Source: Branchiostoma lanceolatum (Eukaryota > Chordata > Leptocardii > Amphioxiformes > Branchiostomatidae). From it: a DNA stretch of 64,000 nt. The position numbers and the translations under genes were made by a program. The notes under the pieces were generated by a model. It did not search any database. It had not been told where the DNA came from and saw nothing but the letters and a program-made list of their open reading frames with translations. Positions 17,365-50,352 of the stretch are shown one piece after another. The DNA lies in contig NC_089730.1 in the NCBI RefSeq assembly GCF_035083965.1, positions 14,367,242 through 14,431,241 on the forward strand, read 5' to 3'. Every line of letters starts with the position of its first letter. Within the stretch, counting starts at the first letter, position 1.

Positions 17365-20300
17365 CTGGAAGGGGCAGAGTAAGTGGAAACACACAACAGT
17401 TTAGCAAGCAGAACACATGGAGCATGGTTAAGAATATCAGAGATACATGTACAACACCGGGAGTTAGACAGAAAGGGAAGTTAAACTGCACCTTTACAAC
17501 TTTGTTTTCCTAAAACTGTTATACATGTACAGTCAAACCTGTCTATAGCGGTCACTCAAGGGACTGGCCAAAACTGGCCGCTAAGGACAGGTGGCCGCTA
17601 TGGAGAAAATGTTGATTAATTGACCACGAGTGACACATGTTTTCAGTACCCACTGAGATACATTTTTTTATTCACCGTACAGTACACATGTAAACATTAA
17701 CATAGGTAAGGCACATTTTAGAAATTCGATTGTTGTTCTTTTACTTATATTATGGGCTTGCAAAAAGAATTATTGTATCTGTCAACTCCAAAATCCATGG
17801 CTTGCTCGAGCTTCATGTCTGAACAGACCAGCATCGCCATACTCTACTCTTGCGACGAATTTGATCATTCGCGACTGCTTCGCTGCAGGCACACGCGTCA
17901 CCAACGAGTTTTAATCATATGAAACTAAGTCCTTCGCAGCAAAATGCCACCTAGTTAGTTAAGAACAAAATATGTGTTGCTCAGTTGCCACTTACTGTTA
18001 GTTTTCGACCGTTTTCAAACATAAAATCGTGGCGACAATTTTCCTTGTCTGTTGTTGTTTGCTTGTCATGATCGGCTTCTACCATTATGCTAATAGGGTA
18101 ATGAGAGGAAGGTTGCTCTTTTGAGAGCTTTTTTTCTTTTAAGAAAATTGCAACAACCCAAATTTTACATCATAGTAATGTTATCCATATTTAGTTTGAG
18201 GCTTTTGGTTAAGTAATTATCCTCAGTAATAGTTTGCAGCAAAATAAATTTAACACACTATACCTCCGCAACAGTGGTGTCTTCCGATGACCTTTATGCT
18301 GCTCCGCCATTCTGAAAATCGTGTTTGGGCACATTTTCGGATGAATTCCCGGGGAAAACGGAAATATTTGGCCGACATTGAAACAATTCGCGAACTTAGC
18401 GCATCAGATACATGTGCGGGCTGTATTTTCCAAAAACTAACTAACCGTAATTTTTGCCCAGTCCAAATGCACAGAAATAGTCAAATATGCTACGATGTAC
18501 AAACGCAAGCCATGTGAAGAAATACTTCAGTTCGCGTCAAACCATGGATAATCTAACAAAGATAAAACATTCTTGTTTTCTTTATCATTATTATCTTGTC
18601 AAGTTGAGTTCATATAAACTTGATAACTGCATAAAAGAATGAAGATTTTGAACCCGGCGTGTGGTGGCGATGCGGCTTCTACCGGCGCACATTGCCCGTT
18701 ATCGGCAGTGTTACTGTACTCGCGGGACCGAAAATCGTCTGGCCGCGACCGCGTTGGACAGGTGGCCGCTATAGCCTAATTCTTAATGCTTATGTCAATG
18801 GGGAAAATCCAAGGGACCGACAAAAAGTGACCACTATGGGCAGGTGGCCGCTATGCAAAGGTGACCGCTAATACAGGTTTGACTGTACATGGTTACCATT
18901 ATATCTGATAACCATGTCTGATATTGCATCTCAGGACAAAGAGGTAGGATGGCAAGAAGTACATGTAAACTCAGTCTGTCTGCTTTGTCAAAAGGTTAAA
19001 CAGAAGATATACAGTATGTCAAGGCAGATGATACTGAAAACTACCTAGTACAGTAATTGTAATGCCTGGAATTGGCAGGTGAGAAAATTTTAATTACAAA
19101 AAGAGAAAGAAAAACAGTGTATGTGACCACCCGTGGCAATGTGACATGTTAGTAAAGGCTGCAAGAAGCTGTTACACTACAAAGGTACAGATCCTTTTAC
19201 CCTTTGTGTGTTTTGTTGTCTTTTTATTTTGCATGATATTCCCGTTATTAAGTCAAGGGTAACACAAATCCAATTTAGGACGCAGCAAGGTCGCCAACAT
19301 GCAGTCAGCAGTGTTACCTGTTCTGTGAGGGGCTGGGCGGGGGGAGCCAAGAGTCGCTGTCCACAGGAGGGGGGCAGGGTGTGGAGACGGTGGTCATGTT
19401 GATGTCTCCGATGATCTTCAGGGCCTCCTTCAGGGAATGGTACATGCGCAGCATCTCATCCCTTCTCTGGGCCTCCGAGGCAGACTCTTCCATCATAGAC
19501 GCCTGAGGAAGGAATCAAAGAGGTGAAAAAACATAGTGGAAACAAACACGGTACAGTCAGAATGTAACGCTTTATCTTTAATGTTTTTTTAGAATTTTGG
19601 ACGCAATTGACTTAAGAATGGGCAAATATAGAACCGATTCACGACAACGAGTACGATAAAGTCATAAGTCTTTGGCGTATGGTGCCTTTTTTTCCTGGGT
19701 GTGAATCGGCCCAGCACGTCACACAACAGGCACTTGTATGGCCTGTACGACGAAGTATGTTCACCTCGAAACCTGAATTGGGTCATACATGTAGATATCC
19801 ATGCCAAACTCACACTCAAGAGTAATGATTTAGTACACAGTGCAAAAATAAGAAGTTTCAATTCACTGTGAGCAAATCATTTGCTATAGTGGGGTCGTGT
19901 GGCGTAACGGCAGGATTTCCGACTCAGAACCAAGGGGTTCCGGGTTTGAATCCCCTGCTGCCACCGATCTTGTGCCTTTGGGAAAAAAGGTACTTAACAC
20001 GATTTTCCCCACTCCACCCAAGTGTAAAAATCGGGTACATTATGTGTGTGGGTCACGACATCAGCAATAGCTGCCTGTGTCCCACGTGTATTGCACTGTT
20101 GCAATTTCAATAAATCCAAATCCATTTGCTATATTTTGCCAGCTATTTTCTTCATCCAAACTTACGCTAACAAACTTTGACAAGTCACAAGTGGAACAAT
20201 CTCAGCCTGACTGAGATTTGACCCCTCACCTGGTCGCCGCTCGAATACAGGTGGGCGAGCATCTCTGATTGGATGAACTCCTTCGTGTCGTTGACGATCA

Positions 20301-23300
20301 TGTGCATGATGGTCTTGGGCACGAGATCGCGGATCGTCTTGGTGATGATGCCCATGTAGGAGTCCACCAGGTTACGGATGGTCTCCACCTGACGTTCCAG
20401 CTGGGGATCCATGGAGCCGAGGTCTCCCTGAGGCTGTGGGGAAACAGAGGTGTGATACCATCTTTTAACATTGTTTACTCTGTATTATAATCTGGCTGGT
20501 AGAATGAGAGGTGGTAGTGATCATGGCATGGAGATGGAAAAACAGCAGTTTCATATTGCGCAAATATGCTATAGATAATATCTGTTATGTAAATGTTTCT
20601 GGTCTGTCAATTTTGATAATTATGACACTGCTTTCGACAGATTTGTCAGCACTGATCCTTGCAGTTGAGGAAGGAAAGCGTTGCATCTAGCATCTAGAAA
20701 TCATCTCAGAAAAGCAGAGACAAATCTAGCAGATAATCTGATTGATGCAGTGATCAAAATAACCGCTTTTCAATATGTCTGTATAAGAATTCTTGTGGGA
20801 TTAGAAAATGGATCAGTTAATTCAAATTAAACCAATCATTTCTTCATCAGTCTTTCAGAAATTTGAATTCTGCCAAAAATATGAGATTTTTCATGACAGC
20901 ATAAGACAGACATCTACTCACATTGCCCTACAATTGGCAATCCAGCCACCATGAAATGGAGAAACAAAAGGACATGGACATGTGAATAACACTGAAACAG
21001 ACATCCTTAATAGGTAACATACATGTATATCACATGTATGTACAATTACAACACAATGAAATGACAGTCATGACATTGCAAATGACGTTGCACTTACTTA
21101 CATACACATTAAGGTATAGGGTAGCACGTCGGCAGAACGTAATGCGCATACAGTAATTGGCCTGCTATTCAACCCTATTATAGCTGCAGAGTCTCTTTAG
21201 TTCTCTTTGGTCAACGTTGAATTAGAATAACAGCCATTGCATAAGATGTCTTTGGACACAACTATATGAACCTATAAACGAGATATCAACCTTAAATACG
21301 CGAACACGGCCTTAAATGCTTACGTTCTGCTGACGTGCTGTATAGGGTACATTAATACCAAGAAAGTTGAAAAAATCAGTGGCATCATGATTCCTCATTT
21401 GCACACTAAAAGTCACAGCACATTATCAACTGCTTCTTCATGCCTGACTTACCCAAAGAAATGCAGGTACAGTATCATTGGGAAAGAAGAGGTAAAAAGG
21501 GTGATGAATAATTAGACATACAGAGGTTTAATATTCCACATTCAAAATGGGAAAAGTTATCAATTCTCAAAGAAAACTTAAGAGGCATTATTTTCGGCAC
21601 AGACAAATCCACGAGGGGAGAAATAAGAAGGAAACCTTCTATACAAGGTAGTTGATAAAAGACAGGTGGATAAATACATTGTGGAAACAAGATGAAAAGG
21701 TGGTGAACGGGGGTTGGTGGATAACATACAAGTATGGCAAAGTAGAAAAGACATAGGGGTAAGTCAAACTTTATCAGCTGAGTAAAATGGTTCTGTGACT
21801 CTTGTACCCCACAGTTTGTAAGTTTACAGAGATCCCAACACAATCATTGATGATAGCAGAGAGTTCAAGAAAATTCTGTCCTGGAACTTGCAAAACTTGG
21901 AAAATGCAAAACCAGATTAAAAAGATGCCATCTATAACCATCCCTCAACAGAGACAGGAGCGTCAAAGACTTTCTGCAACTTATGATCCACTGCTCACCC
22001 AGTCACGTGTTCTATCTGCATAACGTAACATCACAGAAGCAGTGGATTGCTCATTCCTTGACAGGCTGGAGTTGATCAATTTGGGTAAGTCCAATTTCTT
22101 GTGTTGGCAGTTCAACTTTGACTCAGAACAAAATGTTGTCCGTCAGACTTACGCTGGATTCCTCGCTGGTCGGGTCCACGTTGCGTTCAGGGTACACTCC
22201 TGCCCGCAGGAACGACGCCTTCCAACTGTCCACCTCATCCAGCGTCTCCGCCGACAACTCCAGCTGCTTGTAGTCCTTGTAGACGTTTCTACACAGGGTT
22301 AGGAAACAAAGAGGTTAGCACCTCAACCATTGCATCAACAGTCATATCTAAAATATACAGGGAGAAAGCCGACAACTCAAGCTGCTTGTAGTCCTTGAAG
22401 ACGTTTCTACACGGGATTAGGAAACAAAGGTGTTAGCATGTAGAATCATTGCACAAACAGTCGTATCTAAAATACACAGGGAGCAACGCCGACAACTACA
22501 GCTGCTTGTAGTCCTTGTAGACGTTTCTACATTTGATAAAATGAGACATTAGCATCTCTATATGGTATCCATGCACCTACTGTCATATTTCGAATGTATC
22601 TTTTATCTTTTGAAGTCTGTCAAAATGTCCCGTTTACCACAAGTAAACTCTCATCCACCCATCCATCTCACCCTCTTACTAGTCCGGGAGAAGATACACA
22701 TTACATACATGTACATCATGCAGGTGTATGAAGGGTAGTTGTGATGTATCCAACACATATTCAGTGCACAGATGAACCACTAGGGAAATGGTTAATCAAG
22801 GCACATTCAGGGTAAGACAGTTTACCACACAGTGAGCTTTAATGGTTTCATGCATTCAAACTCATACATTGCACAACAGAGATGTATGTATGCTGACCTT
22901 GACTCCTGGTTGAAGAGTGCGAAAATGTGTCTGCGTGACATCCAGCCCTGCTCGACGTCCCGGACCCTCAGGCCATCCAGAGGCAGCATGTACTTCTTAT
23001 CTTTCTCCTGTAAACATCACAATGTCAAGATTATGGAAGCAAAATCACAGAGCTACAAGGTTACAGTTGAAAAAAACTGGCACATTTTGGAGTAATGTAG
23101 CAACTTAACAGGTTTTGACAAATAGTCAAACACTACACACAACAAAAGAGACAAACTCTGTCTTTTCATCAACCCAGTTAAGTCAGATCTCGTCTTGGAG
23201 TTCTCTTGTCACGTGACTAGACGTGTTTCTGTCAAGGTATCCTAACATATACAGTCTAGCTGTACAAGTGCCCGATGTTGTGAGTACATGTAAAGACACA

Positions 23301-26300
23301 TTACTCAGACACCCACCTCCTCATCCTTGAACCAAGAAAGGCTCTCCGCAGTCAGCACAAACCAGTACTCCTTCGAGCCTCCCTTCATGATGCTGATGTT
23401 GTGGATGGTGAGCCAGCCCTTCCGAATAACCTACAGGGCAAAGGTCAGGGGTCATGAGCTATAGGTCATAGTTTGTGGGTCAAAATTCAGTGGTGACAAT
23501 GAGTTCTATTTCATGCATACGTAAAATCTGTGCATGATAAATCAAATCAAATTTTACCAGTAAAATAAATCAAATTCAATTTTATCATGTTATATGCAGT
23601 AGTATTTTCAACCATTAAATGTTCAATTTCTCAAAAAAAGTTCAGTTCATTGTGTGATCAAGACAACCTTTCTTCAAATCAGGTAGCAGATTTTGCAGAA
23701 CATTCTTTTATCAAAAGAGCCACAATCATACATGTACATTGAGTGCATTGCTTCAGAGCAAGAGTGCTGATAACATTCATTAAGTAAAGGAAACTTCTAA
23801 CTTGCTAATTGATTTAGAAGAATAGCTGATTGCTAAAAAGAGAGCAAGCATAAAATCACTGTGCTTGAAACTGTAAAAAAAAAAGATAAAGAAAAATCAA
23901 AATGCCCTAAAAAAAAGTAGGCATAAGGGAAAAGAGTGTCAGGGTCAGGGATCACTCCCGAGTCACCAGCTTGTTGAGCAACAGGCTCCCTCCACACAGA
24001 AAAAAACACACACCACAGACACCAAGTTTGCAGAACTGTTCAAACCTGGTTGCCCACACTCTTGGCCTTTCTTGTTGTCTTGTTGTCACTCTTAGCTTGC
24101 TGGGCGCTGCAAGTGGACAAACGTGATTATTCCTACTCTATCTACCGTCACACGTGCCTCACACATGTTCACACACTGTGTACAATAACACACCTGGTTC
24201 CCTAAGTTCTTGGCATTCCTTTTGGTGGCGGCTTTGTCAGTGGCCTGAGCACTGGAAGTGGAGATGGCAGAGGAGCTAAGTATCGTCAAGCAGCCACCAG
24301 TATGGAAAGAAAACGGGCTCAACAAAAACAGATGAAAAATCAAAGATACTTGAGAGCCAGTGCATAGTTCAGAAAGGGGCAGAGTGTTATTCAGTCTTCA
24401 AGATGTGAGATGTGCTCTCTTTAATCTCTAAAAAATCACTCAAGTCAGCCAAAAAGTGTCACAGGCAGAATATTTGTTAGTAGTGTCAATTCACCCAAGG
24501 TACGTACTTATGAAGAATTCTTTTTCTGGCCAGAAGAGAAAGAGAGAAACAAAACAAGTTTTTCGAGTGGCCGAATTCAGTAGTGCTTACCTACTGCGCC
24601 CTGCTCCTTTAGTAGATGCACTATAAGATAAAGAAACCATCTAAGAAACACCAAAGAACCAAGCCGTTTCCACCAAGCTCCCTACTGTTGTTAGTTAACT
24701 GGATAACATCCGCCACAACTAACCGTCTTATCTATCTGGCTCTACAAGTCTCTGATTAAAAAAAGGGGACTTTGAAAAAATCTTTATCTATGATTGTTCT
24801 TTCATGACCTGCAAAGTTCTGCCACTGATATCAATTGTACTTGATATGTGCTTGGTTATCTTGTATCACATGATCTGAGGAAGGTTTTCGATTAGCTGTA
24901 CAACCATGTGAAGTAACTTTTCAGGTCGTGATGCAAGAACTGTTGTAAATCAACAGATAAAGAATGCAAAAGTCTAATGCAATTAACTGGAAATCACATA
25001 CATTGTATATGATATTGAAAAGTATCTATACTACAAATAAGAAACACTGTCAAAAAATACAGATATTCTTTAAAAGGTAAAATGAAAAGAATCAATTCAA
25101 AGATATTGAAACTTTTAAATCTTCTTTCGCAGAAAACTGCCCAAAAGAAAATCAAGAACATGGTACTAAGTACACTACAGCAACAAATTGCAACAACGAG
25201 ATACATTCAAATAAGACATGGTTAGTAACATAAATACATGTATGGCATTCGTGAACAAAAATGCAGCAGCAAGGGAATGCTGTTAGGGGGATGACATCAG
25301 GTTAGGGGACACCGATCATAAAACCTGAGGCATGTGCCAAAATTTTTTATGACAACAATTTGAAGGGTTCATTTGTCTGTGTAAGCCTTCAACAGATTAA
25401 GGCCACAGCAAGTAAATTTAGTCGCTTCAATTATTGTAACAATGTTTATGGTCTCTTCTTTGAAAATCTAAGCATCTTTTTTCCCCACACTCTTGCATAA
25501 GATTTGGAGTCTGCAGAGGATTTACTTGCTGTGGCCTTGGTGTCTGTTGATTGGCTGACACAAGACAAATGTACAGGGTGGGTGGGATTTCCAACTGCTC
25601 CAGCCTTATAAACCTGACTCCCCACCCAAAGTTTGGGGTGTGGGGACTTACCGCTTGCCCTCAGACCGGGCCGTAGCTCTAGTATTGGGTATGACAGTAT
25701 CACAGTGTTACTATGTTTAGTTCTACTGTTTGGTAAAGCAGGCAGTCATAACACATCAGGTGGTAGAATCATCACCCAACTTCAGTTCAGTTCAGTTCAT
25801 CCTCTTTTTAGAGGTGACACAAGTGTTTCCACAAGTTCCTGTCGTACATGACAGATCGAAGTTCCTGATCCTCATCTTCAAGGCCAACATCCTCTTCGAT
25901 TACTTTCTTTAGTGTCAACGACGGGCGACCACCCCTACGCCTTTCATTCAGTTTCCAGAGGAGAACCATACCCACTTAAACCGTTGATATCAGCCTGGTG
26001 TCCAAACCTATCAAAGCCACTGAGTCGCTTTTGTCCTCTTTGGCAAATGAGGACAAAATGACTGGGCAGGTACATTTGTATAATAGGTTTGAATACAAGG
26101 CTACATTAAAAGTACATATACAATACTCCTCCTTTCTAAAATACATGTAACACTGTACTTTTATTCCTTAACCTGTTGTCTTTGAACGAGTGTGCAAATA
26201 AACATGTAGCATGGTTGATTATGCCCAAAACATTTTTTCATTTACCCGCAGATGTAGCATTGTTTCACTGTATATGTGTTGCTCTAGAACTAGATGTACA

Positions 26301-29300
26301 TGTCCACTAAAAAGTGGTATTTTAGTTTATCAAAGTCAACAAATAGCCATCTTATTGTTAACTGCAAAGAAATAATTCATGAAATAATTTTGGGTGATGA
26401 TTCACAAAAAATGGGTTGTGACTGTCTGTTTTCCACTACACTGATGTTAACAATAACTTCTGTTAAACATGAAACTATGAGTGCAAAACATAGTCAGGTA
26501 CTGGTGGAACAGACTTTGTTAATCCATGGCTTTCACTATTGTAAAGCATTAATAAGCTTGCTGATCCAACAATTTAGTTGGTGAATAAGCCTTTAGTAGT
26601 TCAAGCAGTACCTCATGAGTTTCAAAGGAAAACACTGCCCTCTCAAATTCCCAGGAAAGAGCAAGTTTCCAAGCACGGGTTTGGCTCTGACTTGTTATAT
26701 ACATAATACAGTGCTAAACTTTCTTGTAACACTAAGGTATTCACGGATCAAATTTTCGACGACCACCGTCGCCTTCTTCAGGATCAAAAATAACCAATCA
26801 CTGCCGAAAGTAAACTCGCAAGAGTTACAGACACATGACCTTATTGACACGTGTCATTATGGAAGTGACGTCAGCAATTGTGGTCGTCGAAAATTTGATC
26901 CTTGAATCCCTTAGTGTAGGAAGAAAGTTTAGCACTGTATTATGATTACTACCAACACAGATTAGCTTCCATTATTGTTTTATACATGTTTTGAAAAGTT
27001 TTCAATGTCTTCTTTGTCTCTTTTTTCACTGGTTGCCTCACGCTATATGCAAGTGCACCACTAAAAAGAAATTGAAATTCTGCAAAACAAAGCATTTCTT
27101 GTTTCACTGGTTGCCTCATGCTATGCAAGTGCACCACTAAAAAGAAATTGAAATTCTGCCAAAGAGGTGCGAAAACTAGAACCAAACATCTGCTTGGAGA
27201 TGGGAGAGCAGCCATTTTGTGTCCTTTGTAACCCAGGAGTTTTGCAACTTTGATGGAGGAATTATACTGCCTGACTATGTCTGACTCTGTACCTTCCAAA
27301 CCAGTCCCGATCTGCCCTGCAACATGCAGCACACCAAGACATTACCATTAATACATGTACATGCAAACACCCAGAAACTAGCACAGACAACACTCTCAGA
27401 GAAACCCACAAAAAAGACAGCATCTAATGAACACTACAGTAAAAAGAGCATGCATAAGAGATTGAAATGTCAAAGACAATTGCAACAAGAAAGACAAGAT
27501 GATAATTGAGTCAAAAAAGAGTATGAAGAAAAGACGACCTCCACCATGCAAGAGGCTTTGCATTTGTGCTGTGTACACATGTACATGCTCCCCAAATTTG
27601 GCTGGCAAAAACATACAGACACAGCTGTGGCAAGTATGCAAGTTTCTAGCCCCTAAATTTGACACTGCAGAATTTGCTCTCTTATTTCATTCAAGTGGGA
27701 ATGAAAGAGCAAATTCTGCAAGTCAATTTTAGAGTAAAACCAAAGGGGGAAGGCCCAACTAGAATGCCGCAAGACTAAATGCCAGTCAGTGCCACCCACA
27801 AGAATGCAATGATAAGGCAAGCCTCTTACTCGGCGAACCCCACAAAATCCTCGTGGTTGGTGTTGATGTACGCGATATTCACGTCCACGAAGATGGCGAC
27901 CTGTGGGCGGAAGAACGGCATCGAGCATGGGAGAGGGAAAAGAGCATAGCGTAACCTAGCAACGGTAGACTAAGCAATCTTACTTTGCAAAACCGATGAA
28001 ATCCTCGTGGTTTGTGTTCATGTATGCCAAATTTATCTCCACTAAGTCAATAACCTGTGATGAAAATAAGAGAAACCTGTCTGTCAATCAAAGAAACAAA
28101 CTTTCTTCTGAATCTAAATGAGCAAAGTCAAAGAAACATTGATTAACTGAATCCATTACCTGAATCAATCATTTGTGTGGAGATGTGATAAAAATAGTTC
28201 AGTTTCTAACAACTTAAAATCAAAATCTTTTAAGTCTTTAAATGACAAACTTTTGAACAGGGCAATCTCCCACAATTTGAATTTAGTTACTAAGTCTTCA
28301 TTACCAAATCAGATTGATAATCGTGTCAATAAAGAACACATCTCTTTTAATCATCACCAATAATAGATTAATGTACATATTGACAAATGTAGTCAAATAT
28401 ACAAAATAACTTGACTACTTTGCCAGTTTGAAGATTTTACCAAAACGATGATCAGTACATTTCAAATACCTGATCTTTGGCCCTTTGTTCGCGCTCTCGT
28501 ATATGTGTGGTCACAATGCGTTCCGTTTCCTCTCGCAGCTGGGGGTAGCGTCCCATCTGGAGTTTACAAAAAACATTTGTGATCTTGATACGTAGTTACA
28601 TGTACAAGGTGGTCCTGTGGTTAGGGTTGCTGACATACATGTAGAATGTAAAGGTTAGAGCTGTCCTATAGGATGGGACGTAAAGCCAGAGGCTCCATGT
28701 CTAAGGACAGCCACACCTCAAGCACATTAAAGATCCCATGATCACACTTATCCAAAAGAGTAGGGCGTATATACTGGTGTGAGTGGATCAAACCTTAATA
28801 TAGTCCGATATCGTTGAAGAGATTCATCAGTCACATATAATTACAAGTTACTAATATATTCTTCTATCAGTGACTTTTAAAAAGTAGCAATACGTACTTC
28901 CCAATTTTCGATGTCAACTCTACATCTTGATCAAGGAGCAGGGGTACATGTAAGTAGGATGAACCGTACCGAAGGTTGGGAGCTGCCCAAGTCCTACTTA
29001 CCCCTGCTCCGCAAGGAGGCGGGGGAGGCAGGACGATACTCACAAGTTTCGTCCTAGTCTTGTGTTCTCGCAAGACTAGGTCACTCCGTGATCAAGATGT
29101 AGAGTTGACATCGAAAATTTGGAGGTACGTATTGCTACTTTTTAAAAGTCACTGATAGAAGAATATCTTAGTAACTTATAGTCCAATCTTTTGCAGCTTG
29201 AACGTACATTCAAAACTGGCATGTTATGCCAAAGGTGGTTTACCAGTTAAGAGAAACAAAACGAACCTGTCCAACCACAATTACTTGTCTTTCAATTTAA

Positions 29301-32300
29301 CTACAACATGATTCAAATGAAAAATTTCAAGATTTTTAAAGCAAATTAATCTAACTTGAAGTATCTACATGTATTATGGAGCGTCAAATCATGCAATCTT
29401 CAAACTAACGACCAGACCTTTTCGCCACACTGTCTGACGACGTTGTTGAGCTCGTTGATAACCATGTCCACACACTTCAGAGACGGCTCCTTCAGTTTGG
29501 CGATTTGCCGCTTGCAGATGGCTTCAAACGCCATGTCAGGGGTGAACAGGCCCGTTCTGAAAACATGTGGGTGATCATCAGAGTAACTATGCAAAATGAT
29601 CTAATAGTCTGCTCTAAAGTTCTGATTATTTCTTTCATGGGGACACTAGGAAATATGAAGTTTCCATCATTCATATACAGTACAACTCAGAAGTTATATG
29701 CTTATGTGGTGTTTTAAACATCTGTTTCAATGAAACACAGACAAACACAAGTGTTACAACTGAAGTCAGAATATAGAAGCTAGTCATACTCAAAGCTAAG
29801 ATAATTGTAACAACGATATTAGGGCATTTTAGTAAACAATTCAGAGCTATAGTATATGTACCCTACCTGACACCATGGATGTTCTTAATAGCATAGCTGA
29901 TCTCCCTTCTCAGCTCCTTCTCATCAAACTCCATCTGAAGAGGAAAAACAAAAGCAGCGTTTAAGATGAAATCTTACAGAAGTACAAAAAATTGGGAAAG
30001 ACTTCAACACCAATATTTGTCAGCTGCTTACCAATAATAGATATCATAAGGATTGGAAAGATAATCTAGGCTCACCTTCACGAGCTCGAAGGGAAATCTC
30101 TCGTGGAAGATTCGGTTGATGCGAGCACCACCGGAGAGCTCTACTGTGTCGATCTGGTCACCAGAACCTTCAATCCGCTTGTCGAAATCCACACCAAATG
30201 TGTTCACCATCCTAGAAATGGAAAAAACACAACTTGGTTGTCCAAATTTCCTTCCACTGGTTCATAATGCAATGCAAACAAACAAGTAGTAACATGTACA
30301 AGGCTTGAAATTCATTTTTGCAGATAAGTGAACTGGTGCACTTAACCTAACAATTCTGGGTACACAAAAATAGATAAACTACAGCAAAACCTGCCAACAC
30401 AGTTTCGAGATCTGAAAAATTGTGATGAACCCAGATTCTAAAGATAACTTTTAATCACAAGTAACACAGTAATGGTTTTAATAAAAAATTCATGTAATTT
30501 AAATGTCGAGAATATGTGCTCTAGTACTTAAGTGTACAATAGTAACTTCATGTACATTTTCCCTATACAAATACATGTATCTAGGTGCAAGGCACAGTCA
30601 AAAATTAGGTGTATAGTTCCAACTTTGGGTGCACAAAAAGGGTTTTGTTCCTAGTATTTCCAGCCCTGGGCAGGTCTAAAGTACAATATAAAGATTGTAC
30701 TTGTTACTGACTGTAGCATGGCCTTGGTTTTCCTAGTGGGGTCGTCGGGGCGGAAGTTTTTGTACTCCTCCACCTCCTTCTCCATCCCCAGCAGCTGCCC
30801 CTGCAGTTTGTTCCGCAGCACCGGCAGCGTGTCACGGATGTGGTTCGTCAGTTGCTGAAATGTGAGCGACAATCATGTCAGTGTTCTTGCCAACACAGTC
30901 TGAGCATAGGGCCCCCAATGATGTAGTTTTGTGGATTTACTATGCCAAACCTTAATCTGGTTTTCTTTTCTGTTTGTAAAGATAATATGAGCGACATTCA
31001 TGTCATAAACATGTCAAAACCAACAAATTTGTAGTGCATGTCTACATGTACATGTAGTTCAAGATATGGCAGACAGACACAAAATGTACATATATTAGAA
31101 CCTTGTATGTGGAAGTTAGACCATAAACTTAAGTTGGCAGCTACATGTATATGGCAGAAGACTTACATGTACATGCTCAATGAATTTGTTGAATAATTTG
31201 TAAATATGCAGATGGTTAAGTTCTATGACCACTACAACCATTTGACAATTTGCAAATTGGTTTTGAACAACTTTCATCTTTTTAAAAAATGGCTGATCAA
31301 AAGCACAGATTCTTTTGCAATCACACTTAGAACAAAAGCAAACTTTAATGTGCTAGCGGTTGGCAAATCCGACTCATTACTCCTTACCTGGTTGAGAGTT
31401 TTCTGCAGGTAAGGTGTCCCCATGCGGTCTGCCAGGTGCCTGTACGCAGGGTGGCTCAGGAAGAACTTCCTCTCAGCCGCCAGAGCCGCCTTAATGTCCT
31501 TCTTGCCATCGATGTCTGCCTGACTACGGTTCACCACTCCAATGTATCCTAAACACACGGTGTAACATCAGTATCCTATGGAAGGTATCAGAGAAACTTG
31601 CAAATGTAACCACAGGTACAATAATGTGATTCATATGTGAATTTTGTTTTTCATTGCTATCTATCATCTGAAGCTTTTGCTTACCATAATATTACTACTG
31701 CCAGTCATTCTATACAAACTAAGACAAATCATGAGTAAAAAAAATACCATAGTGAGACATATTTAAGCAAAAGTTGACAATTTTTTCAGCAAAATTATGA
31801 GTGTCACCCAATAATGTATAAAGGAAGTTTAAACTAAGTACGTTTGTTTGATGTATGTCAGATGTTATGAACAGTAGCAGTCAGACTGTCAGTGGTTGAC
31901 ATTGCTAAGGAAGTAGAAGAGTAAGGTTTCTAATATGCACATAAGATGCAAAATCAAAAGAAAGCAAAGGAAAAGAAAAGAAGTACCTTATGACAGTGCA
32001 TCCAAGCAGGTAACAGCAAAATAAAGTTGGGGTTGGGAGGGGAGCTTATTCACCAAGGGTAGGACTAAGAACCAATAAGCTGGTCTTAGTTAGAGCAGCA
32101 TTTTGGAAGAGCTATCCATTCAACTTTAGGTATACACTGATGTATTTGTAGATGAATATTGAAATTGCTAAGCTACATATAGGTACTGGGATACCATACA
32201 TACTTTCAAGGGAAAGCTTCTTAGTTTTGATACATAGTTTCTGGACTTTAACCAGTCAAAGAAACTTTTACTCACAATGGACATATCCGGTCTTAGTTGA

Positions 32301-35300
32301 AACTACTTGTGCGCAAATATCGGAGTGAAAGTAGTTAATGTGCTAAGATGTGTGCAAGTTTGGTAGGGGGTTGTAGGTTCATGATCGTTGGAAAGTCGCA
32401 TTCAATCTGTGTCTCTCGCTCTGTTGGCAGAAGATCCTTGAATTGAGTGCCTCTTTCATCAGTAACAGACAAACCATGCGGAATTTGAAAACTACAGCAG
32501 CTACGCTACGATCTGTTAGAGCGCCAAACCTCTGCGGAGGGGGTACGTCTTGTTGTCCAGAATGTCGCCGGCGTGGGTTCCCTGGTCCATCAGGTCCAGC
32601 TTGGTTAGTACCCCGATCGTACGCATCCCTGCAAACGACATAAGGCGGCACGTTGTAACGATATGGGAGAAAACGGGCAACCCTTACCTCTGCGTAGAGG
32701 ATAAGTCCGGTTCTCAAGAATGTTTCGAGAGTCTGTGCCTTCGTCCATGAGGTCTAGCTTGGTGATCACACCAATGGTGCGCATACCTGTGAAAAACGGT
32801 TAAAAGGACACAACAGGATGATGTTAAGGTCGGACACTGTTGTCAGGGCTGTCTCCAGGAGTCCGTCTTACACTGTACCTCCTCCATTTTGTAAGAATTG
32901 GACTTTTAAAGGTGACTCGTGCATCTAATTTTGAAAATTGACAATCCAAAATCAAATTTTACAAAGTGAACAGACCTAGAGACATTCCTGACTCTATTTC
33001 AATTTCCAAACTTGTCGTGTAAAAAATAAGGTTTCCAAGAACCATTGTGACACCACTTGCTAAGAACCCAGAGGTTGGAGAAAACCAAACCACAATCTAG
33101 GAAAGAAAGGAACTGAAAGAATTAAGAGTTTCCAAATCAAGAGTGAAACACCATCGCAGACTGGCTACAAAGAGTTGTTATGACCACCACATAATGTTAA
33201 TCAACCTGAAAATAGAGCATCAAAGAACAAGAGTATACCAAAGCATTACGTATATTACAGACATGATATTAAAGAGTAAACAATTATACTGCAATGATAG
33301 CAGGCAAACCAATAGACCACAGTACATACATGTATCAAGAGAAACTATATGATGATCATGAAACAATAGAAAAGCAAAAGCCATATATCATCATTTACAA
33401 AGTTAAGGGAATGCCACAATAGCAAGTAAAATATACCGTTTAAGGCGTAGCATAAGAAAGTAAGATTCTTTTCAAATACAAGAGTGGGAAACAGTAGAAA
33501 GCAAACACCATAAGCTATCAAAAACAATGTTAAGAGTATGCCACAATTGCATAGTAAAATACTTTAATTTTGTTTAAGGCATAGCGCAAGAAATAAAGAT
33601 TCTTTTTCAAATACAGGAGTAGGATACAGTAGAAAAGCAAACATAATGTTAGGAGTATGCCACTATTGTATGGTAAAATACATTCGTTTAACTTTAAGGC
33701 ATAGCATAAGACATTCTTTTCAAAGACAGTCAGGCTTTTAAGATAGGAATGTCATTGTGGAAATGTTGAGCAAAAGTCAGATTTTGAAATACAGTCCGGC
33801 TTTTTAAAAAAACAAATGTTATTATGGAAATGTTGAGGAAAAGTGAGTTGAGGAAATGTTGAGGAAAAGTGAGTTGAAGAAATGTTGAGGAAAAGTGAGT
33901 TGAGGAAAAGTGACTACTTCAAACACATCATACCCTGTGGGTCCACTTCCTTTGCTATCTTGAGGGCGTCAGAGTTTGCCAAGTCCTGGTTGGCGGGCGA
34001 CACCGCGAGGATGAGACAGTTGTCCTTGGTGATGAACTGGAAGAGCATGTCTCGGATCTGCTGCTCGATGTCTGGCGGCTGGTCACCGACGGGAACCTTC
34101 GTCATGCCCGGGAGGTCAATCAGGGTCAAGTTCAGGACTGGAAAAAGGAGATTAATAAATAAGGCTAATAAAACGAAGAGGCTTCTCTGTGCAGTTGAAA
34201 TCAATTAGACATTTGACAAATGACAGTTGCTCAAACAACTGGATAAATTTTCTAAACAGCCAGGACTGGTGTTTCAGACAGCATCCGCTGTCTTTTGTCA
34301 TGACTAATTCAAGGGATTAGACATTTGTTTTAACTAAAAGTTAACAGTTACAGTCAAAAATACCCAAAAAGACCACTCAGGGAACCGACAAAATCTAGAC
34401 TGTGTGGACAGGATTCTTTTAACATTTGTGTCAATGGGAAAAATAATCTAAGAGACCGCCAAAAAGTGGTGACATTGGCCAGGTGGGCCTTGTGAAGAGC
34501 TGGTCATTTGTACATCAGGTTTGACTGTATTTGAGCTTGAGCCAGCAATTGAATCTGAAACCAAAATACCTAACTTTAACCTTGGCCTACTTCTATGGTC
34601 TACTACGTGTGGACCATACCATGTTGGACTCACCATGGGGGGAGTAGACCCTCAGGTTGATGGGAACAGGAGAGATCCCTCTGTTGGATCCTGTCATCCG
34701 ATCTGTCTCCGCCTCGATCTCCGCTCGGATCTCGTGGAAATCTGAGAACATCTTCCCCTTAGCATGCAAGAACTCCCCATATTCTGCAATATAAAATACA
34801 TATACATTAATCATAAAGCACATAATATCAATCGTCAGAGATGTGCAATCCTAAACTAGTAATTAATCATAAAGTACATAATATCAATCGTCAGAGATGT
34901 GCAATCCTAAACTCTAGTAGTAAATTCTATGTAAATTCTATGTATTTCTTAAATTCTATTTCATGTCTATAATCCCTTTGCCTGTAAAATAAACAATGTA
35001 ACTGTGGGGCAACATTACTTGTTTCTTGAAGAAAATATGAGATATGAACCTTGAGCACGTTGTAGGGAGGAGTAATCTCCAAGCAGATGTTGGAAAGGAG
35101 AATTGTATAACATTTCCTGTAGTTCTGTATTCTATTCTGTCTTTCTGACATTCATGTGCAACTGCCTGACCCTCCCGATGCATTATTTCTGTATTTTCTG
35201 TACACAAATGATGCGTGAAGGAACAAAAAAGGCTGACGGCACAGAGCAGGTTTAGCAGCACTGTACATGTGACAGAACTGACCCCTCATTTTAGTGGACC

Positions 35301-38300
35301 CTTCCATTTCATGGTTCGTTGGAAGCCCTATTTTCTAGTTGTCACGCCTGCATGGCTTGTTCAGCCCAATTTTTAGCAAAACCAATCAAGCTCTTGATTT
35401 GCCCATCTAACACACTGGAAGGCAGTCCCTCGAGACATCATTGCCAAACATGTAATCTTATAACGTCCTTGTATTGAATGCTATGTTATGATAGTACTTA
35501 TTACATCACCAAGTTCATCAAATTCCTAGAAAATCTTATAAAATCATAGACCTAGACTAGACTCTTATAAATAAAAGTTCATTATCGCCTCCCATTCTAT
35601 TTTCAACTGTTAGGAGGAAGAAGAAAGGTGGCTAAAAATACATTACAACATCACAAATCTTTCTGTGACCAAGTATTCAGCTCAGATATGTGCAAGCTGA
35701 AGAAATAATTATCTATGGCTCTGCAATAACGCAGAATTGTTATTCATAAATATAAAATTCTTGAAATAGAATAGTTGTTCAAATGACATGTAAAGGTTTA
35801 TGGTTGATAATATAAATGTATGATATAATGTGCATGTTCTACATTTACTGGTATATAAGGCTAACACTGGCGTTGCTTGCATCTAACTTCTAAGTAAACA
35901 TTGCGAGATGCTGTATGCATAATTCAGGACGTGCTGGTAGCAAATGAAACGTTGGTGACCTAACGAAGCGTGGGGTGGAGTCGTTCGCTGTCATTTCCCG
36001 TGACAAATCACTGCACACCGACAAATCAATAGGCATCCTTTTCAACCCAGAAAAATCAATAATACGTATACAAGTATCCAGCCATTGCCCCACGCCCAAT
36101 GGGACCTGCACTGGGGTATACTGTTATATGACTGCTTCTGACACTAGGAAACAAATGTTAACTGGAACCAATGATGGTTCCACTTTTTCACAGTATGATC
36201 CAAGACCAACAACTGTTACTACATGCGAAACAGAAAACATATAATGGACTATAGTATGCTTCTCACACTGACAATGCAAAGACTTACGAGTGTTTCAATA
36301 TTTTCACATTTTCTTTTTCATATTCATAACTTCTTAAATCCCATGAACTTGGTTGCTAAAGCCATTTCCATCTTGAAACATCTATTCTTCAAAATTACAA
36401 CAAATAGTACCACTACTCTCTCTATTTATATATAACATTTACAAACAAAATGCACTTGGATTGTTGGAGTGGAATCAGGAGCTATAAAATGAGCCGAAAT
36501 ATTCCCGTTTGCTAGAGTGACATGTGACAGGTTAAAAAAATATACACGTATATTGCGTGAAAGCCTCTAATATTGGTCTACATGTACCTCCCCTGGGATT
36601 GAGATTGGATGACATACCAATAGGTCATCTCTTTCCCAGCATCACCATGTCCCTATGACCTTTCTAAAGAAGCGATGATTACAAAACATCCTGCGTTTTA
36701 CTGTCTGAAAGTGATCTTATCCTTTGATGATGTGATTTTCTCACAGACACTATGGGACAATCCACCTTATCTACGTATAGCTTCGTTGGTCTGACTCACT
36801 CACTGTCACTCTTTGATGTCACACAGGGGATTTTACTTCAAGGTCATAGGAATCTCACGACCTTGGTTGACCTCAAGTTGCTGAAGAGCTAAATTGCATG
36901 ATGTACATTTCTTTGCTACACAGGACTTTGCGCATGACAAATCAGCATGTGAAAACGTTGCACATGAAATGTTTTTGCACATAGTACAGCTACTAAAATA
37001 AATTGCTTCAAATACTGTGAGGATGAGTCACAAATTGCACATAAAAACACTTGTACATGTACCACTAAACAAATTACATTCAGGCAACAAGATTAGATTT
37101 ATATTTGTGGTACAACAGACTATAAACCAGACAGTGAGGGAGGGTGCATTGATATGATAAAACAAAAAACAAATGATATTTGCTTCAAAATTCATAATAC
37201 ATATACATATTTCAATAAATGACCCACCTGCTTTAGGGTTGTGGATAAGCTGTAACACCAGGGGTCGTCTGGTCACAATGCCTGACCCTCGGGGTAGGAA
37301 GTCCCTAGAAAAAAACAAGCAAAGAAAATATTGATAACGAAATATGAGGTTTTGCATCTTTCATGGAACAAAACGGTGGGTATGTATGTTATGATATTAA
37401 CCTATGTATCAATTTGTAATGGTATATAAACATCAAAACAACCATGCTTAGTTCAAAGTATAAGTGGTAATGTCAACACAAGCCATAACTGTATGCCTGT
37501 TTCATTTCACCAAAATAACACTGTTTTACGCAGTCATAAACATACATGTGTACACTTATCTCCTAGTACAAATGTGGTACATAGATTGTCCATGTATTTC
37601 ACATTTTCTTGATTACACTAATCAGTATGCCATGTGTACCTGTGGACAGTACCACTTTAGTCATGAAGGTAATTTGCCCATCAATGGCACTTCAAAAAGC
37701 TGACGAGTCCACAAATGAGATTTATGACAAATTGTGATGGGTAGCGTGCCATTAGGTCAGCTATAAATGCAACTGTAGATCTCTGGCAGCAAAACCATTC
37801 CACACGGTCAGACCAAGGACAACAGTTGGAAGGAATACAAGATGTGTATATTCATGCAAGGGCTATGATGTCATGCAATGATGCCGTGCAACGCAGGTGG
37901 CTTTACGGCAAAGAAAAAGTGAAACAAAACATTCTTGGTTGATATGACCTTTGGCACAAGTTCGAGTTATCCCATTTTATCTAACACAAAGCACTTCATA
38001 ATCTGACAAAAGCAGGAAATAGAAATGTCATTTGACGTTAGGGGCTCCCGTGTCGTCTGACGTTCTCAACTTCCAATCCAACATTGACAAATATTTCTTG
38101 TTTTCAAGGTGACCTTTAATAGAACAAACACATGTGAAAGATTGCTATGGATATTTCAAACATGGCAACGCAAACAAACTTGGCACAGTATTTGAACAGT
38201 TTAACGGGAATGTTAGTTTACTAAAAAGTTATGGTGAGGAACTACAAACGGAAGCACCTGTGCTTTTCCAAGTAAGGGAGCACCTATGTGACCTAATTGC

Positions 38301-39300
38301 AACTATTTTAAGAAGGCATGACTTGCTGTTCTATTGTGAACCATGACCTCATGTATCAAACAATAGAAACTAAACAAAGGGAAAGGTGTGAGTGAAGCCA
38401 CAACACGGGTAACAAAGACAGGTAGCATTCAAACTGCAGGTGTATTTTCATTTAAAAACAAGTGCTGTGGCTTAAGTTATCAACATAACACAACACAAAA
38501 TAAACAAAATCACTTAATGTGAAATGATAATTAAAAAGATGAGTACGTAATTCTTAAAAAAAAACTTTTCAAGATCATCAGCACTGAAAGAGGTAATGAC
38601 AAAAGTAATTTGTCACAAATTATAAGGATTGACAGTCAAATTACGACAATGTCACCTCCAAATGAATTTTAGCATCAGAATCAATCATCATCATAACACT
38701 GGTGTCGTGCAATCCATTCGTGATAAGGGCACAAATTCCCCACAGGATCCGTGGGCTGACCCGATAGGTTGATTGAATTTCGTAACAAGTTTGATTAAAA
38801 ATGTCAGATCGTGGTTGATCGGAGTGATACGCGGGGACTTGGAGGTTTGAGGAATTCTGCCGGCGTCTTGCTGAAGTGTAGATGACCCGGTGGTCGATAC
38901 GGGATGGCACCGTATGTATGAGTTTCCCAAATTGGGCAAAGCGGAAATACATCCCGTCAGCTCAGCCAGCTACTGTTGTGATTCTCAAATTACGCTCTGC
39001 TCTGGGCGGATCGCCGCGTTTCCAGACTACACAGCTAACAAATCCTGAACCATAGCTCATTTGAGATATAGGAATTAAAGGTTTGAATAATAGATACCAA
39101 GGAATGAAGAAGTTGTTGATAATTTCTTCTCACCTGCCAACGAAATTTTCCAACACACTGCTCTTCCCGGCACTTTGCCCTCCCACCACGGCGATTTGTG
39201 GCAGGTCCAAGTCCATGCGATGCCCGACTTGGGAGAAGGCATCTTGCAGTTTGTTCACCAGAGGAATAAGTTCCTCCAGTCCCCTGTTAGCCCACGCCAT
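12165..39300 (-). CDS. DNM: Classical dynamin, complete gene of about 25 exons
   Basis: Large GTPase that oligomerises around the necks of budding vesicles and drives membrane fission in endocytosis. Exons, in transcript order: 39134-39300, 37228-37304, 34634-34783, 33934-34137, 32688-32786 or 32530-32628, 31388-31548, 30712-30854, 30076-30211, 29867-29934, 29418-29556, 28470-28556, 27984-28054 or 27830-27900, optional 24591-24620, 24194-24251 or 24046-24106, 23317-23430, 22898-23007, 22153-22288, 20230-20433, 19318-19502, 17335-17364, 16601-16630, 15395-15430, 14108-14224, 12907-13017, 12165-12225. All junctions are GT-AG and phases agree throughout. One isoform is 897 aa (vertebrate forms are about 865). 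Motifs seen: P-loop GQSAGKSS, switch [20 protein letters not shown]; stalk; PH domain ([18 protein letters not shown]); GED ([19 protein letters not shown]); proline-rich tail with RxxP SH3 ligands. The start [19 protein letters not shown] matches the usual dynamin start style. Confidence 0.97.
17530..18885. mobile_element. Non-autonomous DNA transposon, TIR CAGTCAAACCTG
   Basis: The ends are inverted copies: CAGTCAAACCTGTCTATAGC at left, CAGGTTTGACTG at right, each followed inward by GTGGCCGCTAT and GGTGACCGCT motifs. Flanks are TACATGTA and TACATGGT, a possible target duplication. The 1.36-kb interior has no transposase-like frame. It sits in a dynamin intron. Confidence 0.8.
19202..19300 (+). 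repeat. Dispersed repeat, copy 1
   Basis: It runs from TTTGTGTGTTTTGTTGTC through GTCAAGGGTAACACAAATCC to AGGACGCAGCAAGGTCGCCA. It stops 18 bp short of the donor-side end of dynamin exon 18. Confidence 0.7.
19889..20123 (+). mobile_element. tRNA-derived SINE with perfect target duplication
   Basis: The 5' part is tRNA-like with a box A (TGGCGTAACGG) and a box B-like GGTTTGAATCC, followed by a body and the tail AATAAATCCAAATCC. It is flanked on both sides by the identical 10-mer ATTTGCTATA (19879-19888 and 20124-20133). A mature tRNA fold is not preserved. Confidence 0.85.
22366..22533 (-). repeat. Tandem partial copies of dynamin PH exon 16 (pseudo-exons)
   Basis: The first 40-45 nt of exon 16 plus its acceptor recur at about 22368-22411 and 22487-22531, spaced about 118 and 120 bp. 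The more upstream copy reads NVYKDYKQL then TAG; the other reads [13 protein letters not shown] and then diverges. They are duplicated intron-exon borders that could act as decoy or poison 3' splice sites. Confidence 0.75.
24046..24106 (-). CDS. DNM: Dynamin alternative exon 13c (stalk-PH linker)
   Basis: This 61-nt exon runs phase 2 to phase 0 and encodes [20 protein letters not shown]. It is a one-codon-longer alternative to 13b, 87 bp further along the transcript. The acceptor is CCACTTGCAG and the donor GTTTGA (weak). Including both 13b and 13c would add 119 nt and break the frame. Confidence 0.82.
24194..24251 (-). CDS. DNM: Dynamin alternative exon 13b (stalk-PH linker)
   Basis: This 58-nt exon runs phase 2 to phase 0 and encodes [19 protein letters not shown]. 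It corresponds to the short linker before the PH domain, which in vertebrate dynamins contains NAQQRS and ends in NQ. The acceptor is CACTTCCAG and the donor GTGTGT. It splices in frame to VIRKGW of the PH domain. Confidence 0.85.
24591..24620 (-). CDS. DNM: Dynamin optional 30-nt cassette exon 13a
   Basis: A 30-nt stretch lies between an acceptor (ATCTTATAG) and a strong donor (GTAAGC), phase 2 to phase 2. It would add ten residues (ASTKGAGRS plus a split codon) at the junction between stalk and linker. It cannot replace exon 13b or 13c because its end phase does not fit the PH exon, but it can precede either of them in frame. Confidence 0.6.
25813..25950 (-). mobile_element. LINE ORF2 C-terminal tail
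   Basis: The minus strand reads [47 protein letters not shown] and a stop. The RRRGGRPxLT...VIEED...DR(N/D)LW pattern is that of the extreme C-terminus of non-LTR retrotransposon reverse transcriptases. No upstream RT is visible, so it is a 5'-truncated copy in a dynamin intron. Confidence 0.65.
26703..26943. mobile_element. Palindromic MITE, 66-bp arms
   Basis: The left arm ATAATACAGTGCTAAACTTT... and the right arm, which ends ...AAAGTTTAGCACTGTATTAT, are near-perfect inverted copies. The arms continue inward to TTTTCGACGACCAC and GTGGTCGTCGAAAA. About 241 bp overall, in a dynamin intron. Confidence 0.85.
27040..27160. repeat. Two tandem copies of about 79 bp
   Basis: TTTCACTGGTTGCCTCA and GCACCACTAAAAAGAAATTG are each present twice. 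A separate short hairpin (CAGAATTTGCTCTCTTA... mirrored) is at 27665-27721. Confidence 0.7.
27830..27900 (-). CDS. DNM: Dynamin alternative exon 12b (end of stalk)
   Basis: This 71-nt copy of exon 12 has identical phases and encodes [20 protein letters not shown] then GFA plus GA. Splice sites are strong (CGCCCACAG and GTAAGA). Using both copies would add 142 nt and shift the frame, so only one can be used in a functional mRNA. The copies agree across NTNHEDF and diverge in the first ten residues. Confidence 0.9.
27984..28054 (-). CDS. DNM: Dynamin alternative exon 12a (end of stalk)
   Basis: This 71-nt exon runs phase 0 to phase 2 and encodes [20 protein letters not shown] then GFA plus the first two bases of a Lys/Asn codon. 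It matches the vertebrate segment that ends in [12 protein letters not shown]. The acceptor is TTCATCACAG and the donor GTAAGA. A diverged copy follows after an 83-bp intron. Confidence 0.93.
28608..28795 (+). mobile_element. Probable SINE
   Basis: GTGGTTAGGGTTGC near the start resembles a tRNA box A, and the body contains GGGACGTAAAGCCAGAGGC and CACATTAAAGATCCCATGA, words common in invertebrate SINEs. Its limits are approximate. It lies in a dynamin intron. Confidence 0.55.
28858..29164. mobile_element. Palindromic MITE, 76-bp arms
   Basis: The arms at 28858-28933 and 29089-29164 are almost perfect inverted repeats (ATTCTTCTATCAGTGAC to CTTGATCA and back). The interior holds a second inverted pair around GTAAGTAGGA/TCCTACTTAC and another around CAAGACTA. 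It lies between dynamin exons 10 and 11. Confidence 0.88.
32530..32628 (-). CDS. DNM: Dynamin alternative exon 5b (GTPase G4 segment)
   Basis: This is a second 99-nt copy of exon 5 with the same phases, encoding [20 protein letters not shown] then [16 protein letters not shown] is intact and there is no stop. It differs from 5a at eight residues, including I/L, E/Q, DSRN/HAGD and ENR/DNK. The acceptor is TCGTTTGCAG; the donor (GTTTGG) is weaker than that of 5a. The intron between 5a and 5b is 59 bp, probably too short to splice, which favours exclusive use. Confidence 0.88.
32688..32786 (-). CDS. DNM: Dynamin alternative exon 5a (GTPase G4 segment)
   Basis: This 99-nt exon runs phase 1 to phase 1 and encodes [20 protein letters not shown] followed by [12 protein letters not shown]. 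It carries the TKLD guanine-specificity motif and is very close to the vertebrate sequence. The acceptor is TTTTTCACAG and the donor GTAAGG, both strong. A second intact version of the same segment lies 59 bp further along the transcript. Confidence 0.93.
33362..33730. repeat. Three tandem copies of about 125 bp
   Basis: Each copy contains CAGTAGAAAAGCAAA, GTTAAGAGTATGCCAC, GTAAAATAC and TTTAAGGCATAGCATAAG. Just downstream, 33838-33915 holds a short array of GTTGAGGAAAAGTGA units. Both are in dynamin intron 4. Confidence 0.8.
34351..34527. mobile_element. Short MITE with the same CAGTCAAA/CAGGTTTGACTG ends
   Basis: A 177-bp element begins CAGTCAAAAATACCC and ends CAGGTTTGACTG. It shares internal words (GTCAATGGGAAAA, GACCGCCAAAAAGTGG) with the element at 17530-18885, so it is an internally deleted relative. 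It lies in dynamin intron 3. Confidence 0.75.
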
Positions 39301-50035: not shown

Positions 50036-50352
50036 CTGAAAGTTCTTGCTTTTGACTGAATACATGAACAATTAGCTAAGTCTACTGATGCAGAGGAGTG
50101 AGTAAGGTTGGGAGGCCACGGGAAATATAACCAGCGTTGGCACATTCACGGATTGAGAATACTGAATTGTATGCTAGCATTAAATCCGGGGTAAACAAAA
50201 CTATCGGGATAGTGGTATTGTGATGGTTTTACCCCATATTTTCGCCAGAAATACACTATAAAATCTATACTTTTATGCATTTCACTAGGTTTTTCAAGCT
50301 TTTAATGAAAACGTATCAATAACATTTCTGCAGGACCAAAGACTTGATCAAC

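Follow-up and report, generated by a model that had tools for sequence, protein, structure and literature searches.

Tandem copies of the exon for the GTPase G4 segment, and tandem exon pairs near the stalk-PH linker, in a lancelet dynamin gene

Dynamin is the enzyme that severs vesicles from membranes. A dynamin gene of the lancelet Branchiostoma lanceolatum, lying in the 64,000-nt stretch of genomic DNA analysed here (the window), carries two adjacent intact versions of the exon that encodes the G4 (TKLD) segment of the GTPase domain. We call them exons 5a and 5b, and consider it highly probable that they arose by an old tandem duplication, that both have been retained by selection, and that they are used as alternatives between exons 4 and 6. 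Tandem copies are also present of exon 12, at the end of the stalk, and of exon 13, in the stalk-PH linker. It is about an even bet that one invertebrate dynamin gene has in this way acquired three exon switches by independent evolution, of which one affects the GTPase domain and the others the stalk-PH linker, yielding up to eight tuned dynamins, while vertebrates rely on three paralogous genes, the 10a/10b exon pair and linker cassettes. If this is true, the G4 switch would represent a natural splicing control of the dynamin GTPase cycle.

A classical dynamin gene on the minus strand

The window was searched by tblastn with a human dynamin 1 (DNM1) sequence as the query. The exons for the GTPase domain, stalk, PH domain and GED were found to be collinear on the minus strand, where they span 39.3 to 19.3 kb. 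Exons 1-18 were delimited by GT/AG splice sites and phase (Table 1), and they are numbered here according to the human dynamin scheme. Since the spliced model is open and places G1, G3, G4 and G5 ahead of the stalk, PH and GED, the gene appears to be a classical dynamin (DNM family). This agrees with the identity proposed in a preliminary description of this DNA, which is upheld both by the tblastn matches to the DNM1 sequence and by the peptide of exons 4, 5a and 6 joined together, which matches dynamin-1 in the PDB across all of its 155 residues. The junction between exon 12 (ending in DFIGFAN) and exon 13 (starting with AQQRS) also agrees with the translated primers for the DNM2 exon 12b insertion given in an excerpt of PMC9652393.

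Table 1. Position of the dynamin gene and of its exons discussed in the text (coordinates of the window)
Feature	Position	Strand	Remarks
Dynamin gene, exons 1-18	19318..39300	minus	ATG, then GTPase, stalk, PH, GED; tblastn and splice-site model
Exon 4	33934..34137	minus	G3 region (DLPGM); donor phase fits 5a and 5b
Exon 5a	32688..32786	minus	99 nt; G4 (TKLD) segment, upstream copy; donor GAG/GTAAGG, strong
Intron 5a/5b	32629..32687	minus	59 nt; GT...AG
Exon 5b	32530..32628	minus	99 nt; G4 segment, downstream copy; donor GAG/GTTTGG, weak
Exon 6	31388..31548	minus	G5 (GVVNRSQ); takes 5a or 5b in frame
Exon 10	29418..29556	minus	Site of vertebrate 10a/10b; single copy
Exon 12, first copy	27984..28054	minus	71 nt, 23 residues; end of stalk
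Exon 12, second copy	27830..27900	minus	71 nt, 23 residues; 83-nt intron separates the copies
Exon 13, first copy	24194..24251	minus	58 nt; stalk-PH linker
Exon 13, second copy	24046..24106	minus	61 nt; 87-nt intron separates the copies
Candidate tail segments	14253-14107, 13049-12867, 12284-12168	minus	Proline-rich, open; downstream of the exon 1-18 model

Duplicates of each exon were sought within the gene region, with the coding strand as the target (E<1). This search recovered pairs 5 and 12, two fragments of exon 16, and four weak matches with E values of 0.18 to 0.80 (one for exon 2, two for exon 10, one for the second exon 12 copy), which were taken as chance. At the same threshold and within the same region, no third copy of exon 5 was present. 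The short exon 13 pair was missed by the per-exon search and was found by a motif scan. All the dynamin pairs share the features by which tandem exons are recognised, i.e., they are adjacent homologous exons of the same phase and similar length, bounded by GT/AG sites. When the exons of pairs 5, 12 and 13 were combined in every possible way, 8/8 combinations remained open as far as exon 18 extends, which makes for a core of 769 or 770 residues. Thus, if the pairs are used as alternatives, eight dynamin cores, varying in the GTPase domain and the stalk-PH linker, would be produced from one locus. An Rfam scan of the window returned zero RNA families at the gathering threshold.

Anatomy of the exon 5 pair

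Exons 5a and 5b are alike in phase, as each of them opens with two bases and closes with one base of a split codon. The acceptor of 5a is TTTTTCACAG and that of 5b is TCGTTTGCAG. The two exons are identical at 71/99 nucleotides and 26/34 residues (28 nucleotide and 8 residue differences), and both align by tblastn with residues 197-230 of the human dynamin 1 query, 5a at 79.4% identity (E 1.3e-11) and 5b at 73.5% (E 2.5e-10). The coordinates of the two exons, their 99-nt lengths, their equal phase and the 59-nt intron between them had been given in the preliminary description, and we find all of these correct to the base; the tandem copies of exons 12 and 13 are additional to what it describes.

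Four repeats (33760-33911) follow closely on the exon 4 donor; three of them are at least 97% alike and the fourth is 76% alike. On the coding strand, a pyrimidine-rich stretch reads CTTTTCCTC in three of them and CTTTTGCTC in the fourth. As an idea only, these repeats upstream of 5a could be a candidate site for a pyrimidine-tract repressor.

Both exon 5 copies look selected

We assessed selection on the copies by comparing them with each other. By the Nei-Gojobori method, 5a and 5b show 19.5 synonymous differences per 25.8 sites and 8.5 replacement differences per 76.2 sites (pS 0.75, pN 0.11; Fisher p 4.7e-10, calculated on rounded counts), the silent sites being at or near saturation. We also simulated a null model in which one copy evolves freely, with a transition/transversion rate ratio of 2 and, as a simplification, a partner that takes only synonymous changes. 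Under this model the mean number of amino-acid differences was 14.9, against the 8 observed; 0/5000 simulations ended with 8 or fewer, and a stop arose in the free copy in 2006/5000. Judged by this two-copy comparison, through the pS/pN values and the simulation alike, both 5a and 5b look to be under purifying selection. The earlier view of them as two intact exons is upheld. For the exon 12 pair (49/71 identical nucleotides, pS 0.65, pN 0.22) the observed conservation was reached in 103/5000 null simulations, which suggests selection on both copies less strongly than in the case of exon 5.

A different fate is seen at exon 16, which encodes part of the PH domain. Here, the acceptor and the first part of the exon are present in three tandem copies (22250-22558), 118-120 nt apart, and only the last one in the direction of the gene is complete. 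Over 71 nt, the two fragments share 92% and 70% identity with the intact copy, and one of them has an in-frame stop; they look dead. In contrast, the copies of exons 5 and 12 are intact and have diverged at silent sites.

Most residue differences between 5a and 5b lie just past the G4 motif

The residues that distinguish 5a from 5b are 204, 212, 215, 216, 217, 218, 221 and 223 in dynamin-1 numbering. Seven of these eight fall within residues 212-223, just past the G4 motif, and they include D215H and R217G in 5b; the histidine replaces an aspartate common to DNM1 and DNM1L, and residue 217 is a glycine. In comparison to human DNM1, 5b has 9/34 mismatches and 5a 7/34. TKLD itself and the LMD that follows are unchanged between the copies, which confirms an earlier observation that the guanine-binding motif is retained in both.

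In DNM1L, residues K216 and D218 contact the ribose and the guanine, and changing them to alanine brings activity down to zero (PMC3747075, in excerpt). The equivalent dynamin residues, K206 and D208, are kept in 5a and 5b. Because K206, D208 and D211 are unchanged, both proteins would be expected to bind GTP. As the changes cluster just after the G4 motif, the isoforms may differ in GTPase rate or in the contacts of the GTPase domain, with nucleotide choice unaffected; it is the position of the changes that points to such a functional difference. An exon 5 swap would affect a part of the enzyme that binds the nucleotide and that lends itself readily to tests by mutation.

Residues 224-225 are Thr-Tyr in both 5a and 5b, Leu-Leu in DNM1 and Val-Ile in DNM1L. 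Since Thr-Tyr is common to the two copies, unlike in DNM1 and DNM1L, these few sequences give a hint that the exon 5 duplication may postdate the split of this lineage from vertebrates.

Exon 12 and exon 13 pairs

Both exon 13 copies start with N or D, which is followed by 19 residues in the first copy and 20 in the second, and it is from their anatomy that we propose them as a pair. When pair 12 or pair 13 is considered alone, inclusion of both copies or of neither shifts the frame and leads to a stop, so nonsense-mediated decay would be expected to clear transcripts with double use or skipping of either pair. By simple arithmetic, joint skipping of exon 12 and the 58-nt exon 13 restores the frame (129 nt). 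The intron after the exon 12 pair contains a hairpin (27666-27720) with 21-nt arms that are 90% complementary and 13 nt apart.

Short introns within the pairs and how exclusivity may arise

Of the 20 introns in the model, none is shorter than those within the pairs (59, 83 and 87 nt), the next one being 141 nt long; under a random order of lengths, the chance that the three shortest would all be within pairs is 1/1140. In the case of exon 5, double inclusion or skipping leaves the mRNA in frame and without a stop. Since the frame is not affected by either, exclusion of one copy would have to come from splicing itself.

We scanned the short introns for branch motifs. In the 59-nt intron, the candidate GTTAC (4/5 consensus bases) is located 32 nt from the donor, and a stricter match, CTTAT, at a distance of 47 nt, which puts it only 12 nt away from the acceptor. 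The 83-nt intron also has a candidate 32 nt from its donor, whereas in the 87-nt intron the candidates nearest to the acceptor lie 67 and 70 nt from the donor. Steric exclusion is thus plausible, although not proved, for pairs 5 and 12, and a steric block would not be expected in the 87-nt intron. The preliminary description had held that the 59-nt intron is too short for most animal spliceosomes and that joining of 5a to 5b is therefore sterically unlikely. The shortness of the intron and the candidate branch at 32 nt are in line with this, but the CTTAT match at 47 nt and the in-frame double-inclusion mRNA are not. Moreover, a 56-nt intron of human HNRNPH1, with a donor-to-branch distance of 27 nt, is spliced with the help of SPF45 (PMC8363638, in excerpt), and length alone therefore does not forbid the joining.

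Donor strength was scored with a human matrix. The 5a donor scored 6.76 and the 5b donor -0.52; similarly low scores were obtained for exon 7 (-0.87), exon 10 (0.44) and the second copy of exon 13 (0.02). By inspection, the donors are not U12-like.

We also assessed RNA pairing of each short intron with the nearest 600 nt or less of the flanking introns, using shuffled controls. Within these flanks, exon 5 gave no signal: the observed pairing was equalled or exceeded in 19/200 and 183/200 shuffles, and the pairing of flank with flank in 84/100. The corresponding values, for flanks of the same extent, were 39/200, 50/200 and 5/100 for exon 12, and 139/200, 171/200 and 12/100 for exon 13. A competing RNA structure has been reported for the human dynamin-1 exon pair (PMC3923563, in excerpt).

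Taken as alternatives, 5a would be the default exon, because its donor is much the stronger, and 5b would be chosen if 5a were repressed or if the donor of 5b were activated. Joining of 5a to 5b would be disfavoured by the small space that the 59-nt intron offers between its donor and the better-placed branch candidate, and this would be backed by competition between the two exons.

Alternative explanations

The weak donor of 5b raises the question of whether this copy is instead a decaying duplicate, a pseudo-exon that splicing seldom or never includes. The gap between the two donor scores fits such a reading, and so does the greater distance of 5b from human DNM1, with the loss of D215; the partial copies of exon 16 demonstrate in addition that dead exon fragments do occur in this gene. 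However, decay is hard to reconcile with the one-free-copy simulations, none of which ended with as few amino-acid changes as observed, and the exon 16 fragments are unlike 5b, their 71 nt of similarity including intron sequence and one of them being interrupted by a stop. We regard the decay of 5b as improbable. Inclusion of 5a and 5b together, i.e., a cassette or optional second copy that would add 33 residues past the G4 motif, is somewhat less probable still. Such an mRNA would be open, and introns as short as 56 nt can be spliced in human cells (PMC8363638, in excerpt), but the conserved GTPase fold would be expected to suffer if the G4 segment were repeated ahead of G5, and the intron that would have to be removed is the shortest of the whole model.

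Haplotype duplications can occur in animal assemblies, and the exon pairs could in principle be an artefact in which two haplotypes or paralogous genes were collapsed in tandem. The exon 5 copies, however, differ at 28% of their nucleotides and are nearly saturated at synonymous sites, which is unlike alleles; the three pairs are separate and belong to a single collinear gene; and, apart from the exon 16 fragments, the per-exon search (which missed the exon 13 pair) gave no other duplicate at E<0.1. An artefact is thus very unlikely, far more so than decay of 5b, and retention of both exon 5 copies as alternatives is the explanation that we prefer.

Comparison with known exon choices in dynamins and other proteins

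The isoform diversity of dynamins has been described for vertebrates. Excerpts of PMC2916854 place the alternative exons 10a and 10b in DNM1 and DNM2 and state that they are absent from DNM3 and from invertebrate dynamin; a lancelet (B. floridae) is among the sequences of that study, and invertebrates are said to have a single isoform at this splice site. The use of 10a and 10b is mutually exclusive, with a developmental switch in mouse (PMC2916854 and PMC9652393, in excerpt), and DNM1 peptides from both forms have been detected (PMC4465641, in excerpt). The lancelet exon 5 pair resembles this system in being a set of tandem exons of a classical dynamin, for which mutually exclusive use is suggested here by the sequence. 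Unlike it, the exon 5 pair belongs to the GTPase domain, while 10a/10b is a duplicated exon for residues 399-444 of the middle domain, so the lancelet pair is not a member of the vertebrate one. The preliminary description had drawn the same distinction, and exon 10 is indeed single here: in the coding-strand search of the gene region, no second copy came up beyond the two chance-level matches, both at E 0.80.

Two further alternative exons, 12b and 13b, are described for mammalian DNM2; 12b is used mainly in muscle and lies near the autoinhibitory interface (PMC9652393, in excerpt). The variation thus concerns the stalk-PH linker, where the lancelet gene duplicates exons 12 and 13. According to the same excerpt, however, the mammalian exons are in-frame additions (10 residues in the case of 12b) and not duplicated alternatives, and the lancelet tandem copies are distinct from the DNM2 exons that bear these names. 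If pairs 12 and 13 act as switches, splicing control close to the autoinhibitory interface would seem to have evolved more than once. The excerpt of PMC9652393 names no alternative exon at exon 5.

Outside dynamins, human and fly orthologues have often acquired substitutions of tandem duplicated exons independently of each other (PMC9741552, in excerpt). The lancelet pairs are similar to these cases, as homologous exons swap one region of the protein and functional residues are kept, but they differ in that a segment with a nucleotide-binding motif is swapped and that three pairs occur in one gene; the terms dynamin and dnm have 0 occurrences in the main text of that paper. Mutually exclusive exons and exon duplication are also among the terms of a study on G-alpha evolution in Metazoa (PMC5896119, in excerpt), although the G-alpha tandem exons belong to a different GTPase family. 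Among the matches listed in a search of open-licence papers by title and abstract opening, we found no report of alternative exons in the dynamin G4 segment. Within that literature and among the matches listed, the lancelet pairs are of a known kind in a new place in dynamin. Predicted 5a and 5b isoforms may already be present in the public annotation of lancelet genomes.

Other features of the window

Intron 10 of the dynamin gene contains an inverted repeat (28842-29180) with 97-nt arms that are 95% complementary and 145 nt apart, which resembles a small non-autonomous transposon. On the minus strand, an open segment at 62849-63274 matches the end of the phytanoyl-CoA dioxygenase family. On the plus strand, open segments at 44124-44441 and 45189-45524 match different parts of Peptidase family S51 and are probably exons of one gene, and a long open frame (50323-51696) encodes many C2H2 zinc fingers, with 14 stretches that match the double-finger model.
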